Below, in pieces: positions 3,824 to 8,909 of a DNA stretch of 64,000 bases; the first letter of the stretch is position 1; each line of letters begins with the position of its first letter. The DNA is from Deltaproteobacteria bacterium. GTDB taxonomy: Bacteria; Myxococcota; Myxococcia; Myxococcales; Anaeromyxobacteraceae. Both the position numbers and the translations under genes were made by a program. The stretch covers positions 186,001-250,000 of the forward strand of contig JACRMN010000012.1 in the NCBI GenBank assembly GCA_016214955.1, given 5' to 3'. The notes under the pieces are model-generated. The model was given only the letters and a program-made list of their open reading frames with translations, made no database searches and had not been told where the DNA came from.

Positions 3824-3839
3824 AGCAGGAGTCGTGCCG
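3824..3839 (-). promoter_or_regulatory. Sigma-54 -24/-12 promoter of the cupredoxin gene
   Basis: Read on the minus strand, CGGCACGACTCCTGCT matches the consensus TGGCACG-N4-TTGCW, with the required GG-N10-GC spacing. It lies about 38 bases upstream of the cupredoxin start and 73 bases downstream of the palindrome at 3913-3929. Confidence 0.65.
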
Positions 3840-3912
3840 CTGCCGAGAGCCGCCGCCTTCCCGCGCCGGGACTGGCGATTCCCGCGGCCGGCCGGCGCGG
3901 GGCAGCCGCGCC

Positions 3913-3929
3913 GTGACCGGATCGGTTAC
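3913..3929. promoter_or_regulatory. Palindromic enhancer-like site, copy 1
   Basis: GTGACCG-GAT-CGGTTAC is an inverted repeat with 7-base arms and one mismatch. The same 7-3-7 architecture recurs at 4335-4351 and 8819-8835, each time upstream of a sigma-54 element. It is probably the binding site of the NtrC-family regulator in this locus (inference). Confidence 0.6.
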
Positions 3930-3941
3930 GCGAAGCGGCCT

Positions 3942-4196
3942 CTAGCGGTTGCCGGGGCAGTGACAGGCCAGCCGGGCCTGCCGCGGTGCCGCTCCGTCCG
4001 GCGGATGCGCGGGCGCAGGGCGTTCGGCAGGCACCTGCGTGCCTCCCGGTGCACCGGCCACGGGGTGGCGGGCTGCGGCCGGCCGGCTGCGAGCCCGATC
4101 GAAGCGAGAGTCCACGTCGCCCGCCCGGGCTCGAACGGCAAGGCCCGAAGCAGCGAGCGCGAAGGCAGCGAAGAGCGGCAAGGACCGAGCGGTCAC
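3942..4196 (-). CDS. Small secreted peptide with C-terminal CxC (copy A)
   Basis: An 84-residue product starting at GTG with a textbook ribosome site (GGAGAAG seven bases upstream). A signal peptide of about 25 residues ends in RARA, followed by GDV, then a Pro/Ala/Arg/His-rich stretch, ending in CHCPGNR. The mature protein has only two cysteines, both in the final CxC. The divergent 61-aa gene at 4522 shares this plan (signal peptide, GDV, low-complexity spacer, CxC end), so the two look like diverged paralogues. I recognise no family. Promoter context predicts sigma-54-dependent, metal-responsive expression; copper or thiol-metal binding outside the cytoplasm is a reasonable guess. Confidence 0.68.
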   Translation of the reverse strand: MTARSLPLFAAFALAASGLAVRARAGDVDSRFDRARSRPAAARHPVAGAPGGTQVPAERPAPAHPPDGAAPRQARLACHCPGNR

Positions 4197-4246
4197 GGGA
4201 CTTCTCCTGCAGCCCGAGGGCTGCGTGGGGGGTCGAGTGCAGGTGG

Positions 4247-4262
4247 AGCAGGGCGCGTGCCA
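4247..4262 (-). promoter_or_regulatory. Sigma-54 promoter of CxC peptide A
   Basis: On the minus strand TGGCACGCGCCCTGCT matches the -24/-12 consensus at all conserved positions except one T of TTGC, with GG-N10-GC spacing. It lies about 50 bases upstream of the GTG at 4196. The palindrome at 4335-4351 begins 73 bases upstream. Confidence 0.72.
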
Positions 4263-4334
4263 GCCGCCGCCGCCGTGGATCCCGCCGTGCAGGGCCCCTC
4301 GACGCGCGCTGGCGGTCGCCGGCGCGGTTCCACC

Positions 4335-5858: not shown

Positions 5859-5862
5859 GGTC

Positions 5863-7266
5863 TCACTCCCGTCGCCTGAAGTCCTCGGCGCGGATGCCGT
5901 ACTGCTTCAGCAGCCGGTGCAGGCTCTCGCGCTTCACCCCGGCGCGCACCGCGGCCTGGGTGACGTTGCCCTCGAGCTCGCGCAGCAGCGCCACCAGGTA
6001 GTCGCGGGAGATGCGGTCGCGGGCCAGCTCGACGGCGTCGCGGAAGGGCATCTTGGCCAGCTCCTCGGCGGGCAAGGAGCCCTCCTGCTGCCCCCGGACG
6101 TCGTCCGGCAGGTCCTTCACCCCGACCCGCCCGCCGTGCGCCACCGCCACGGCCCGCTCCACCGCGTTCTCCAGCTCGCGGACGTTGCCGGGCCAGGGAT
6201 AGCCGGTGAGGGCGCGCAGCGCGTCGGGCTCGAAGGCCTCGACCTGCCGGCGGAAGGCGCGGGCGTGCTTCTCCAGGAAGTGGGCCGCCAGCAGCGGGAT
6301 GTCCTCGCGCCGCTCGCGCAGCGGCGGCAGGCGGATGGGGAAGACGTGCAGGCGGTAGAACAGGTCCTCGCGGAAGCGGCCGGCGCGCGCCTCCTCCTTG
6401 AGGTCGCGGTGCGTGGCGGCGATGACGCGGACGTCGATCTTGGCCGCCCGGTTGTCGCCGACGCGCCGGATCTCGCGCTCCTGCAGGGCGCGGTTGAGCT
6501 TCACCTGCACCGGGAGCGGCAGCTCCCCGATCTCGTCGAGGAACAGGGTGCCGCCGTCGGCCTCGGCGAAGAGGCCGGCCTTGTCGCCGGCGGCGCCGGT
6601 GAAGCTCCCGCGCACGTGCCCGAAGAGCTCGCTCTCCACCAGGTCGGGCGGCAGCGCCCCGCAGTTGACCGGGACGAACCGCCTCTCCTTGCGCGCGCTG
6701 TGGTAGTGGACCGCGCGGGCGGCCAGCTCCTTGCCCGTCCCTGTCTCTCCGCCGAGCAGCACGGTGATGTCGAGCTTGGCGGCCTGCTCCAGGAGCGCGA
6801 AGACCTCGCGCATCCGCGGGCTCTTCCCGATGATGTTGTGGAAGGAGTAGACGCCCTCCAGCTCCCGCCGCAGCGACTCGGCCTGGCGCTTGAGCCGCCG
6901 CCGCTCCAGGGCCCGCGCCACCGCCAGCGCCGCGGCGTCCGGGTCGAAGGGCTTCTGCAGGTAGTCGTAGGCCCCCTTCTTCATGGCCTCGACAGCGTCC
7001 TGCACCGAGGCGTGGCCGGTCATGAGGATGACCTCGGTGTCCGGCGAGCGGCTCTTCACCGCCGCCAGGACCTCGAAGCCGCCCGCCGCCGGCATCTTGA
7101 TGTCGGTGACCACCACGTCGAACTCCTGCGTGGCCACCAGCGACAGGGCCCGCCCGCCGTCGGCGGCGGTGACCAGCTCGTACTCCTCGCCCAGGATCCG
7201 GGCGAAGAGGCCGAGCATGTTCTCCTTGTCGTCGACGACGAGGACGCGGGCGCGGGGCTCCGTCAC
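5863..7266 (-). CDS. Sigma-54-dependent response regulator (NtrC family)
   Basis: A 467-residue activator. An N-terminal receiver ([10 protein letters not shown], phospho-Asp in VVTDIKMP) is followed by an AAA+ domain with Walker A GETGTGKE, the sigma-54 contact loop as GSFTGA (Ser where GAFTGA is usual), and a C-terminal Fis-type HTH ([20 protein letters not shown]). The GTG start overlaps the stop of the partner kinase. Three palindromes plus four sigma-54 elements lie within 9 kb, which predicts it controls the cupredoxin, the two CxC peptides and the efflux pump. The Myxococcus CorSR copper system has the same design. Confidence 0.92.
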
Positions 7267-8777
7267 GTGATGCCTCCCGGGAGGCCCGGCAACCGCAGGG
7301 TGAAGCAGGCGCCGCCCGCGGGTGCCGCCCCGGCCTCGATCGATCCGCCGTGGGCGCGGGCGATGGCCAGGGAGACCGCCAGGCCGAGCCCGGTGCCGTG
7401 GTCCTTGGTGGTGAAGAAGGGCTCGAAGAGCCGGCCGGCGGCCTCCTGGCTGATGCCGCGGCCGGAGTCGGCCACCGCGACCTCCGCGGCGCCGGAGGCG
7501 CTCCCCAGGCGGACGTCGACGCGCCCGCCGGTGCCGGCGGCCTCGGCGCCGTTCCGCACCAGGTTGAAGAGCACCTGGCGCAGCTTCTGGGCGTGGCCCC
7601 GGGCGACGGCGCTGCCCTCCACGGTCACGGTCACCCCGTCGAGCAGCTTCGCCTCCCGCAGGCGGGCCAGGACCTCGTCGGTGAGCTCGCGGAGGTCCAC
7701 CGGCTGCGGGTGCGCCGGCAGGGGCCGCGAGAGGTCCAGCAGCCCCTCGACGATCTCGCGGCAGCGGAGCGTCTCCTCCTCGATGATGCGCAGGTCGCCG
7801 GCGGTGCCGTCGTCGGCCCGCTTCCGGAGCAGCTTGGCGTAGCCCAGGATGACGCCCAGCGGGTTGTTGATCTCGTGGGCCACTCCCGCCGCCAGCCGCC
7901 CGATGCCGGCCAGCTTCTCGCTCTGCAGGAGCTTCTCCTGGTGCTCGCGGAGCGAGCGGGTCATGGCGTTGAACTGCTGGGCCAGGGCCCCGAACTCGTC
8001 GGGCGAGTCGACGGCGATGTGGGCGTCGAGGTCGCCGCCCGCCAGCCGGGCCGCGCCGGCCCGCAGCCTGGCGATGGGCCGGGCCACCGAGCGGAGCACC
8101 CACAGCCCCAGGCCCAGGGCCAGCAGCGCCGAGGCCAGCTGCAGCGCCAGCACCCCGCGCACCGTCCCCCGCTCCGAGGCCTCGACCCGGGCCTGGACCC
8201 GGGCGATGGCGGCCTCGAAGCCGTCGACAAGCTGCTCGGTCCGGTCCTGGATCCGGGTCACCAGCAGCTGCGCCCTGTCGTGCTCCAGCTTGACGTCGGC
8301 CCGCTCGCCGCGCAGCACCGCCGGCACGATGCGCTCGCGGAACACCCGGTCCAGCTCTCCGGTGGCGCCGGCGATCTCGTCCACCCAGGCCAGCTCCTCG
8401 GGGGTTGCGGCGCGGGACCGCACCTGCGGCAGGAGGTCCAGCACACGCTTCTGGGCCGCCTCGTAGAAGCCCAGGTGGCTCTCGTCGCCGATGATGATGG
8501 TGTGCGCCTGGTGGGCGTACTGATCGCGCACCGCGCTCGCCAGCTCCAGCGCCAGCCGGACGCTCTCCGCTCCCTCGCGCGCCGTGTCGAGCCCGTCGTG
8601 GACCCGCTGGAAGCCGCGCAGCGTCAGCAGCGCAGCCAGCGCGAAGACGGCGAGCAGCGCCCCGAAGGCGAGCAGCAGGCGGCGGGCGGTTCCGGACCAG
8701 CGCGGCAAGGGGTCTCCCGCAGGAGCCGGAAGCACCTGGCGTGCCGGCCCTGCAGGGTCCGATATCGCCGGAGCCAT
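7263..8777 (-). CDS. Membrane sensor histidine kinase paired with the NtrC-type regulator
   Basis: A 504-residue kinase. TM1 lies at about 33-53, then a roughly 150-residue helical periplasmic sensor, TM2 near 200-220, and HAMP (about 220-275). HisKA carries AAGVAHEINNPLGVI (phospho-His), and HATPase carries NLVRNGAEA and a GTGLGLA loop. Start at 8777 is set by GGGAGGAAG upstream; an ATG 11 codons earlier lacks a ribosome site. It overlaps the regulator start, so the two are co-translated. Signal is probably periplasmic copper or a related metal (context). Confidence 0.88.
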   Translation of the reverse strand: MAPAISDPAGPARQVLPAPAGDPLPRWSGTARRLLLAFGALLAVFALAALLTLRGFQRVHDGLDTAREGAESVRLALELASAVRDQYAHQAHTIIIGDESHLGFYEAAQKRVLDLLPQVRSRAATPEELAWVDEIAGATGELDRVFRERIVPAVLRGERADVKLEHDRAQLLVTRIQDRTEQLVDGFEAAIARVQARVEASERGTVRGVLALQLASALLALGLGLWVLRSVARPIARLRAGAARLAGGDLDAHIAVDSPDEFGALAQQFNAMTRSLREHQEKLLQSEKLAGIGRLAAGVAHEINNPLGVILGYAKLLRKRADDGTAGDLRIIEEETLRCREIVEGLLDLSRPLPAHPQPVDLRELTDEVLARLREAKLLDGVTVTVEGSAVARGHAQKLRQVLFNLVRNGAEAAGTGGRVDVRLGSASGAAEVAVADSGRGISQEAAGRLFEPFFTTKDHGTGLGLAVSLAIARAHGGSIEAGAAPAGGACFTLRLPGLPGGIT

Positions 8778-8818
8778 GCGCGCTTCCTCCCAGCGCCGCC
8801 GCCCCGGCAATCCGAGGC

Positions 8819-8835
8819 GTGACCGCGCCGGTCAC
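8819..8835. promoter_or_regulatory. Perfect palindrome between kinase and efflux genes, copy 3
   Basis: GTGACCG-CGC-CGGTCAC has perfect 7-base arms. On the plus side it lies 58 bases upstream of the sigma-54 element of the efflux operon. On the minus side it abuts a candidate -10 box (TACACT, 8841-8836) of the kinase-regulator operon, so the same site could activate the pump and repress the regulator genes. Confidence 0.65.
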
Positions 8836-8893
8836 AGTGTAAGCGCTCCGGAGGCACCGCGCCGCCAATCGCGCGGAGTTCCGCGGCCCGTCC

Positions 8894-8909
8894 TGGCATG
8901 GACCGTGCT
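8894..8909 (+). promoter_or_regulatory. Sigma-54 promoter of the CusCBA-type operon
   Basis: TGGCATGGACCGTGCT carries GG-N10-GC and five of six bases of the -24 box. Transcription would begin only a few bases before the ATG at 8922. The upstream ATG at 8898 lies inside the promoter, which argues against that start. Confidence 0.55.

Follow-up and report, generated by a model that had tools for sequence, protein, structure and literature searches.

A palindromic element paired with sigma-54 promoters points to a CorSR-type copper circuit in Anaeromyxobacteraceae

The Escherichia coli copper pump CusCFBA is regulated by the OmpR-type CusSR pair and sigma-70, and ZraSR is an NtrC-type zinc and lead system. 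The CorSR pair has been known since 2013 to control copper tolerance in Myxococcus. In M. xanthus, copper induction of MXAN_3421, cuoA and copA needs CorSR, CorR is listed with receiver, sigma-54 AAA and HTH_8 domains, and putative sigma-54 promoters have been placed before genes A, B, C and G (PMC3707914). No CorR binding site was found in the literature searched, which many subscription papers lie outside, and the main text of PMC3707914 makes no mention of a palindrome, inverted repeat, direct repeat or binding site. We have analyzed a 64,000-nucleotide stretch from the genome of a soil-dwelling relative of Anaeromyxobacter in the Anaeromyxobacteraceae (the window; genome G000, contig C26, 186001-250000) in which a 17-base-pair (bp) palindrome, best written as GTRACC-N5-GGTYAC, lies upstream of sigma-54 elements at cupredoxin, pump and kinase-regulator genes. 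The locus very likely represents the CorSR copper circuit in the form that it takes in Anaeromyxobacteraceae, with the palindrome as the predicted CorR enhancer. This reading is built on conserved sequence, on the layout of the promoters and on best-match orthology; binding, phosphotransfer, copper as the signal, operon structure and transcription are its inferred parts.

The palindrome, hereafter the operator, occurs in three copies, to which no strand is assigned. Copy 1, GTGACCGGATCGGTTAC (3913..3929), fits GTRACC-N5-GGTYAC exactly and belongs to the cupredoxin promoter; copy 2, GTGACCACGCCGGCCAC (4335..4351), has one mismatch to this refined consensus; and copy 3, GTGACCGCGCCGGTCAC (8819..8835), is perfect and common to divergent CusC and kinase promoters. 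An earlier note on this DNA had described the three copies as GTGACCG-N3-CGGTCAC, and its positions and mismatch counts were reproduced (one at 3913, two at 4335 and none at 8819). The four -24/-12 elements that it had named were likewise all located: CGGCACGACTCCTGCT (3824..3839, minus strand) upstream of the cupredoxin gene, the leftward TGGCACGCGCCCTGCT (4247..4262, minus), CGGCACCGGCGTTGCA (4426..4441, plus) upstream of a gene for a 61-amino-acid (aa) CxC peptide, and TGGCATGGACCGTGCT (8894..8909, plus) upstream of cusC. A fifth element, CGGCACGCCAGGTGCT (8731..8746, minus), upstream of the kinase-regulator operon, had been overlooked. Measured start to start, operator 3913 is 90 bp from the cupredoxin element, operator 4335 is flanked by two divergent elements, 89 and 91 bp away, and operator 8819 is 89 bp from the kinase element and 75 bp from the cusC element. 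When window positions 1-18000 were scanned, six sigma-54 elements scored at least 12.9. Five of them have the palindrome, with at most two mismatches, in the 160 bp upstream; no such palindrome precedes the remaining one, inside copA (964, minus strand), in that interval.

The fifth element (8746-8731) sits inside the frame opened by ATG 8777. Because orthologous kinases start near residue 24 of this frame, TTG 8708 is most likely the kinase start. The element is then upstream of the kinase, so that operator 8819 would serve two divergent promoters and the circuit would be autoregulatory. For CusC, ATG 8922 is the most likely start, since ATG 8898 falls within the promoter element. The cusC and kinase start codons are thus placed about 3 and about 13 bases past the predicted transcription starts (8894-8922 and 8746-8708, respectively), and short gaps of about 28-38 bases between element and start codon are seen in several relatives too; the two transcripts are possibly near-leaderless sigma-54 mRNAs. 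Scans for sigma-70 promoters and terminators gave no result, and Rfam gave no match across 3400-9000.

The specificity of the palindrome was assessed against several controls. At up to three mismatches, 26 matches were found in the window versus 8.7 in shuffles. The exact form GTRACC-N5-GGTYAC occurs at 7 places in the 5.3-megabase (Mb) genome (control, 1); two of these are in the present locus, both with a sigma-54 element, and the other five have no element scoring at least 12 within 160 bp. Patterns combining a half-site with a sigma-54 element, which do not fit the element at 4426, matched 2 and 5 places genome-wide (controls, 0 and 1), six of the seven being in the present locus. A de novo search, with the window left out, covered all 6-mer dyads with spacers of 0-12 and at most one mismatch between arms upstream of 43 strong sigma-54 elements from 20 loci, of which 19 were from relatives and one was the own-genome paralogue locus L069. 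The top-ranked dyad was GTGACC-N5-GGTCAC, present in 14 of the 20 loci; 200 random draws never gave more than 7.

Absence of the palindrome from related genomes had been named in the earlier note as a refuting outcome, and it was not observed: the palindrome-promoter pair recurs in the family and in Myxococcaceae. Of the 24 family genomes, 21 have a kinase match of more than 500 bits, the remaining three being 66-87% complete, and a CusC gene adjoins the kinase in 12 of 23 relatives' loci (20 genomes). We defined an operator pair as an operator with at most one mismatch together with a sigma-54 element scoring at least 11.9, before kinase, CusC and cupredoxin genes. The 23 relatives' loci contain 47 such genes, of which 26 are preceded by a pair (cupredoxin, 11/12; CusC, 8/12; kinase, 7/23). 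With 170 permuted arms, the mean was 0.12 and the maximum 7, the maximum coming from a near copy of the real arm. A pattern scan of the family returned 26 matches in 17 of the 24 genomes, and the reversed control returned 0.

The distance between operator and promoter is best judged in loci fetched by kinase homology, which were not selected by spacing and are therefore the fairer sample. There, nine of 11 cupredoxin pairs are spaced at 87-90 bp (start to start). Pooling all loci gives 71 distinct pairs, 41 of them spaced at 87-92 bp; this pool is biased, because many of its loci were fetched with patterns permitting only about 61-94 bp. A near-fixed 90-bp spacing, considered as a general rule, was cut back, as the kinase-fetched loci are tight only for cupredoxin promoters. 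Distances outside the main group weakly follow a 10.5-bp period that is in register with this group (p about 0.03), which is suggestive of enhancer looping.

Beyond the family, the composite pattern was found in 31 of 195 genomes of the phylum (control, 0). In 12 of 16 order-level loci (L113-L128), the operator stands 90-91 bp before a sigma-54 element that is followed by a cupredoxin gene. Among named species genomes, 26 stretches were retrieved, of which 18 are Myxococcota-titled and 2 are 'Deltaproteobacteria' metagenome-assembled genomes; a cupredoxin lies downstream in 13 of the 26. The 9.1-Mb genome of M. xanthus AM003 has three exact operator copies (reversed control, 2). Those at the cupredoxin and kinase genes are followed by sigma-54 elements at 91 and 92 bp, and the third has no element scoring at least 11 within 160 bp. 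A one-mismatch operator with a sigma-54 element 69 bp on precedes a heavy-metal-domain P-type ATPase in the CopA position. The order at this locus is cupredoxin, multicopper oxidase, kinase, regulator, ATPase, and the locus was equated with curA from gene order and Pfam domains. Set beside the promoters proposed for genes A, B, C and G in the available part of PMC3707914, operators were located at A, C and G.

Several further matches were recorded. In the order-level loci L119, L123 and L124, an operator with a sigma-54 element (position 1501) precedes an uncharacterised lipoprotein-like gene; no such pair was found in L118 in a stricter scan. A Candidatus Eisenbacteria contig (L137, 498-601, minus) combines an exact operator with a strong sigma-54 element, and its regulator is 54% identical; its kinase is without the histidine motif, and the operator target encodes a small protein with several cysteines. 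In Reinekea blandensis (L142, 5841-5945, minus), the operator-promoter pattern lies before a pilin-like gene and is probably unrelated.

The kinase (7263..8708, minus) has a periplasmic four-helix sensor, HAMP, HisKA and HATPase domains and adjoins the regulator (5863..7266, minus), as in CorSR. The earlier note had likened the NtrC-type activator to CorSR, and this was borne out: in a one-way search of M. xanthus, the regulator matches that of curA best (70% identity, E 9e-214; next match, 51%), and both have receiver, sigma-54 AAA and HTH_8 domains. The kinase is 53-54% identical to Archangium and Myxococcus kinases. By best match, the pair is thus assigned as CorSR orthologues. A C-terminal helix motif of the regulator (starting GNVTxA[AS] and ending [KR]) is common to the aligned family, Myxococcus and Archangium orthologues, the L060 regulator being cut short at this helix, and is absent from the paralogues aligned. 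In the kinase, the motif RDxYAHQAHT[ILV]I[IL]GxxSH recurs in the orthologues aligned from Anaeromyxobacteraceae, Archangium and Myxococcus, one of which reads TH in place of SH; the kinases of L069, L070 and L137, which are more distant, do not have it. Membership of the pair in ZraSR, which has the same architecture of an envelope-sensing kinase and a sigma-54 activator, was rejected with the NCBIfam equivalogs (ZraR, 384 bits vs a cut-off of 760; ZraS, 159.5 vs 479). A second such kinase, 43% identical and without the histidine motif, is encoded beside an NtrC-like gene elsewhere in the genome (L069; G000 C26 554705-556147).

The sensor was modelled by AlphaFold2 as a four-helix bundle (mean predicted local distance difference test score, 90.5). 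Residues H66, H69, H78 and H143, counted from TTG 8708, are invariant in a six-sequence alignment and, judging from secondary structure and helix order, would lie near the membrane-distal tip. The solved folds that Foldseek places closest, NarQ and four-helix chemoreceptor domains, give no indication of the ligand.

We propose that excess periplasmic copper is sensed by the four-helix kinase, probably via the membrane-distal histidine cluster, and that the kinase then phosphorylates the NtrC-type regulator. The regulator would bind GTRACC-N5-GGTYAC as an enhancer and activate sigma-54 promoters 66-146 bp off, at about 90 bp for cupredoxin genes. In the window, three operators would serve five promoters. 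The kinase-regulator-cytochrome c operon would be among the targets, giving positive feedback, and the others would be cusCBA, the cupredoxin gene (perhaps with the ECF, or extracytoplasmic function, sigma factor gene and copA), the secreted CxC peptide gene and a leftward transcript of uncertain product. The window resembles the M. xanthus CorSR/curA system in its predicted cupredoxin target, a PF13442 cytochrome c, CopA, putative sigma-54 promoters and the operator. The window differs in having CusCBA and a secreted CxC peptide, in having no multicopper oxidase beside the cupredoxin, and in that its genes, unlike the curA operon, are divided among several transcription units around shared operators.

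Copper is put forward as the signal because of CorSR orthology and the gene content. The circuit could instead answer another metal or envelope stress more than copper, which we regard as unlikely. CusA-type pumps export silver as well as copper, which counts for such a signal. The M. xanthus cuoA and copA genes have also been reported to respond to other metals, according to the accessible parts of PMC3107203 and PMC7010606. Against this stand the cupredoxin, the CopA-type ATPase and the pump methionines. CopA scores above the Cu cut-off of TIGR01511 (574.7 vs 397), CusA passes the CusA/CzcA model TIGR00914 (1041.5 vs a cut-off of 701.45), and in an alignment to structure 3t51 its methionines 586, 637 and 709 coincide with conserved CusA methionines, which we take to be the copper/silver path of E. 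coli CusA. Furthermore, CorSR control in M. xanthus is copper-dependent, as described in the part of PMC3707914 available.

A different doubt concerns the protein on the operator. Another regulator, whether a repressor or a second activator, might bind the palindrome while CorR acts via other sites at the same sigma-54 promoters. The operator does occur also before cupredoxins far from the kinase-regulator pair, as this explanation would have it. In loci fetched by kinase homology, however, it lies 69-146 bp upstream of sigma-54 elements, an enhancer-like position; it stands ahead of the kinase-regulator genes themselves in both the window and M. xanthus, as well as in 7 of 23 relatives; and the CorSR-dependent operon contains two of the three exact M. 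xanthus copies. We therefore consider a separate binding protein quite improbable, and retain CorR as the predicted ligand of the operator.

Several observations weigh against the CorSR assignment and its enhancer. No operator pair was found at 21 of the 47 gene starts (kinase, 16/23; CusC, 4/12; cupredoxin, 1/12), where the CusC genes of L057, L060 and L068 have directly upstream a cupredoxin with its own pair, and the operator in L046 has two mismatches. Seven of the 26 family-scan rows are without a sigma-54 element scoring at least 12, and G018 and G019, both incomplete genomes, have the operator before a cupredoxin and no full kinase match. For all gene classes in the kinase-fetched loci, 9 of 26 distances are at 87-90 bp (range, 69 to 146), and the 10.5-bp phasing is weak. 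Six of the 26 named-species stretches are from unrelated groups. A further possibility is that the palindrome-promoter pairs arose by chance in GC-rich DNA, where GTGACC is frequent at loose settings: at up to two mismatches the palindrome has 130 places in the genome versus 41 for the reversed control, and some composite matches outside the locus resemble chance. This reading is nevertheless barely credible, having been rejected by shuffles, reversed patterns, permuted arms and random draws, which gave far fewer matches, and being contradicted by cross-genus conservation before the same genes.

The pump is encoded on the plus strand from 8922 by genes for a CusC-type outer membrane efflux protein (PF02321; 8922..10316), a CusB-type membrane fusion protein with two heavy-metal binding motifs (10340..11878) and the CusA-type resistance-nodulation-division pump (11882..15193). 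It resembles E. coli CusCFBA in the subfamily score and the three aligned methionines of CusA, and differs in being predicted under an NtrC-type activator and sigma-54. A kinase-like gene ending in a receiver-like segment follows cusA (15200-17275, plus) and has no link to the operator.

The earlier note had joined the pump, a cupredoxin and two CxC peptides in one circuit. The circuit is supported, and the sigma-54 elements before the cupredoxin gene, cusCBA and the 61-aa peptide gene (4522..4707, plus; ending CACKR) stand; the kinase operon itself is now added, and only the 61-aa peptide is coding-like. Its GC content at third codon positions (GC3) is 0.92, compared with 0.92-0.99 for the cupredoxin, cytochrome, regulator, kinase, ECF and CusC genes. 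The second frame (84 aa, ending ACHCPGNR; 3942..4196, minus) has a GC3 of 0.75, a composition that is not coding-like, and therefore may not be a protein gene. No significant homologue of either peptide was found in the 24 genomes, the best other matches being at E 0.007 in G004 for the 61-aa peptide and E 0.002 in G006 for the 84-aa frame. The second-best other match of the 61-aa peptide (E 0.025, G022) is a secreted CxC peptide behind a sigma-54 element; the similarity, which is not significant, covers the signal peptide and AGDVT only. All fetched loci were scanned for small secreted CxC proteins behind elements scoring at least 12.4, leaving out proteins with the cupredoxin motif TRK or TRR. 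Five were returned: the two of the window, one each in G006 and G022, from two other genera, where the operators have two mismatches, and a G018 cupredoxin with a CxC leader. The case for the CxC peptides as regulon members thus comes from the way their promoters are built and from analogy, not from homology.

The cupredoxin (PF13473; 3430..3786, minus) is the commonest operator target in relatives. The ECF sigma factor gene (2676..3230, minus), perhaps cotranscribed with it, and the CopA-type copper ATPase gene (150..2669, minus), last in the presumed cupredoxin-ECF operon, lie downstream on the same strand. For this reason, CorR may reach both. Between the cupredoxin and ECF genes is an open frame for a 34-aa membrane peptide (MDDCCKG...; 3232-3336, minus) with a strong ribosome site and no Pfam match. 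The ECF C-terminus reads CGACARHACLDCHC and is Cys-rich, a trait of the CorE group. Three of the 24 family genomes (G000, G006 and G022) encode close homologues of the ECF factor (E at most 1e-30), and the ECF and copA genes of G022 are immediately preceded by an operator pair. The window factor is thus like CorE in its C-terminus and in adjoining copA; it differs in being predicted under a CorR promoter, a link not found in the available part of PMC3107203.

The order of genes is copA, ECF sigma factor and cupredoxin (minus), the 84-aa frame (minus), the 61-aa peptide (plus) and then a minus-strand run of kinase, regulator, cytochrome c and a small secreted protein, whose ends touch or overlap. 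The cytochrome c (PF13442; 5217..5858, minus) has an N-terminal hydrophobic stretch and is presumably in the kinase-regulator operon. The small secreted protein (4894..5220, minus; GC3, 0.84), without a Pfam match, is encoded by the last gene of this presumed operon; in G011 (L047), a homologue has an operator pair to itself.

The regulator family is known from CorSR; the operator is newly deduced and the arrangement of the regulon is new. Neither the operator nor the ECF link, nor membership of the pump and the peptides, was found in the literature searched, including the accessible parts of PMC3107203 and PMC7010606. A wider scheme is possible, though we hold it only tentatively, in which CorR heads a relay: the operator would turn on the pump, the cupredoxin, a copper-dependent ECF factor with copA, and a class of secreted CxC peptides, evolving fast, that would buffer periplasmic copper or carry it. 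If true, this would be a sigma-54 to ECF hand-off within one metal response, and the peptides would form a new copper-binding group defined by promoter instead of sequence. Because the 17-bp tag also stands at M. xanthus copper genes, a copper switch that was unexplained becomes directly testable. The operator permits regulon prediction in other myxobacterial genomes and predicts members beyond the curA work, as far as that work is accessible, namely CusCBA, secreted CxC peptides and a CorE-like sigma factor.

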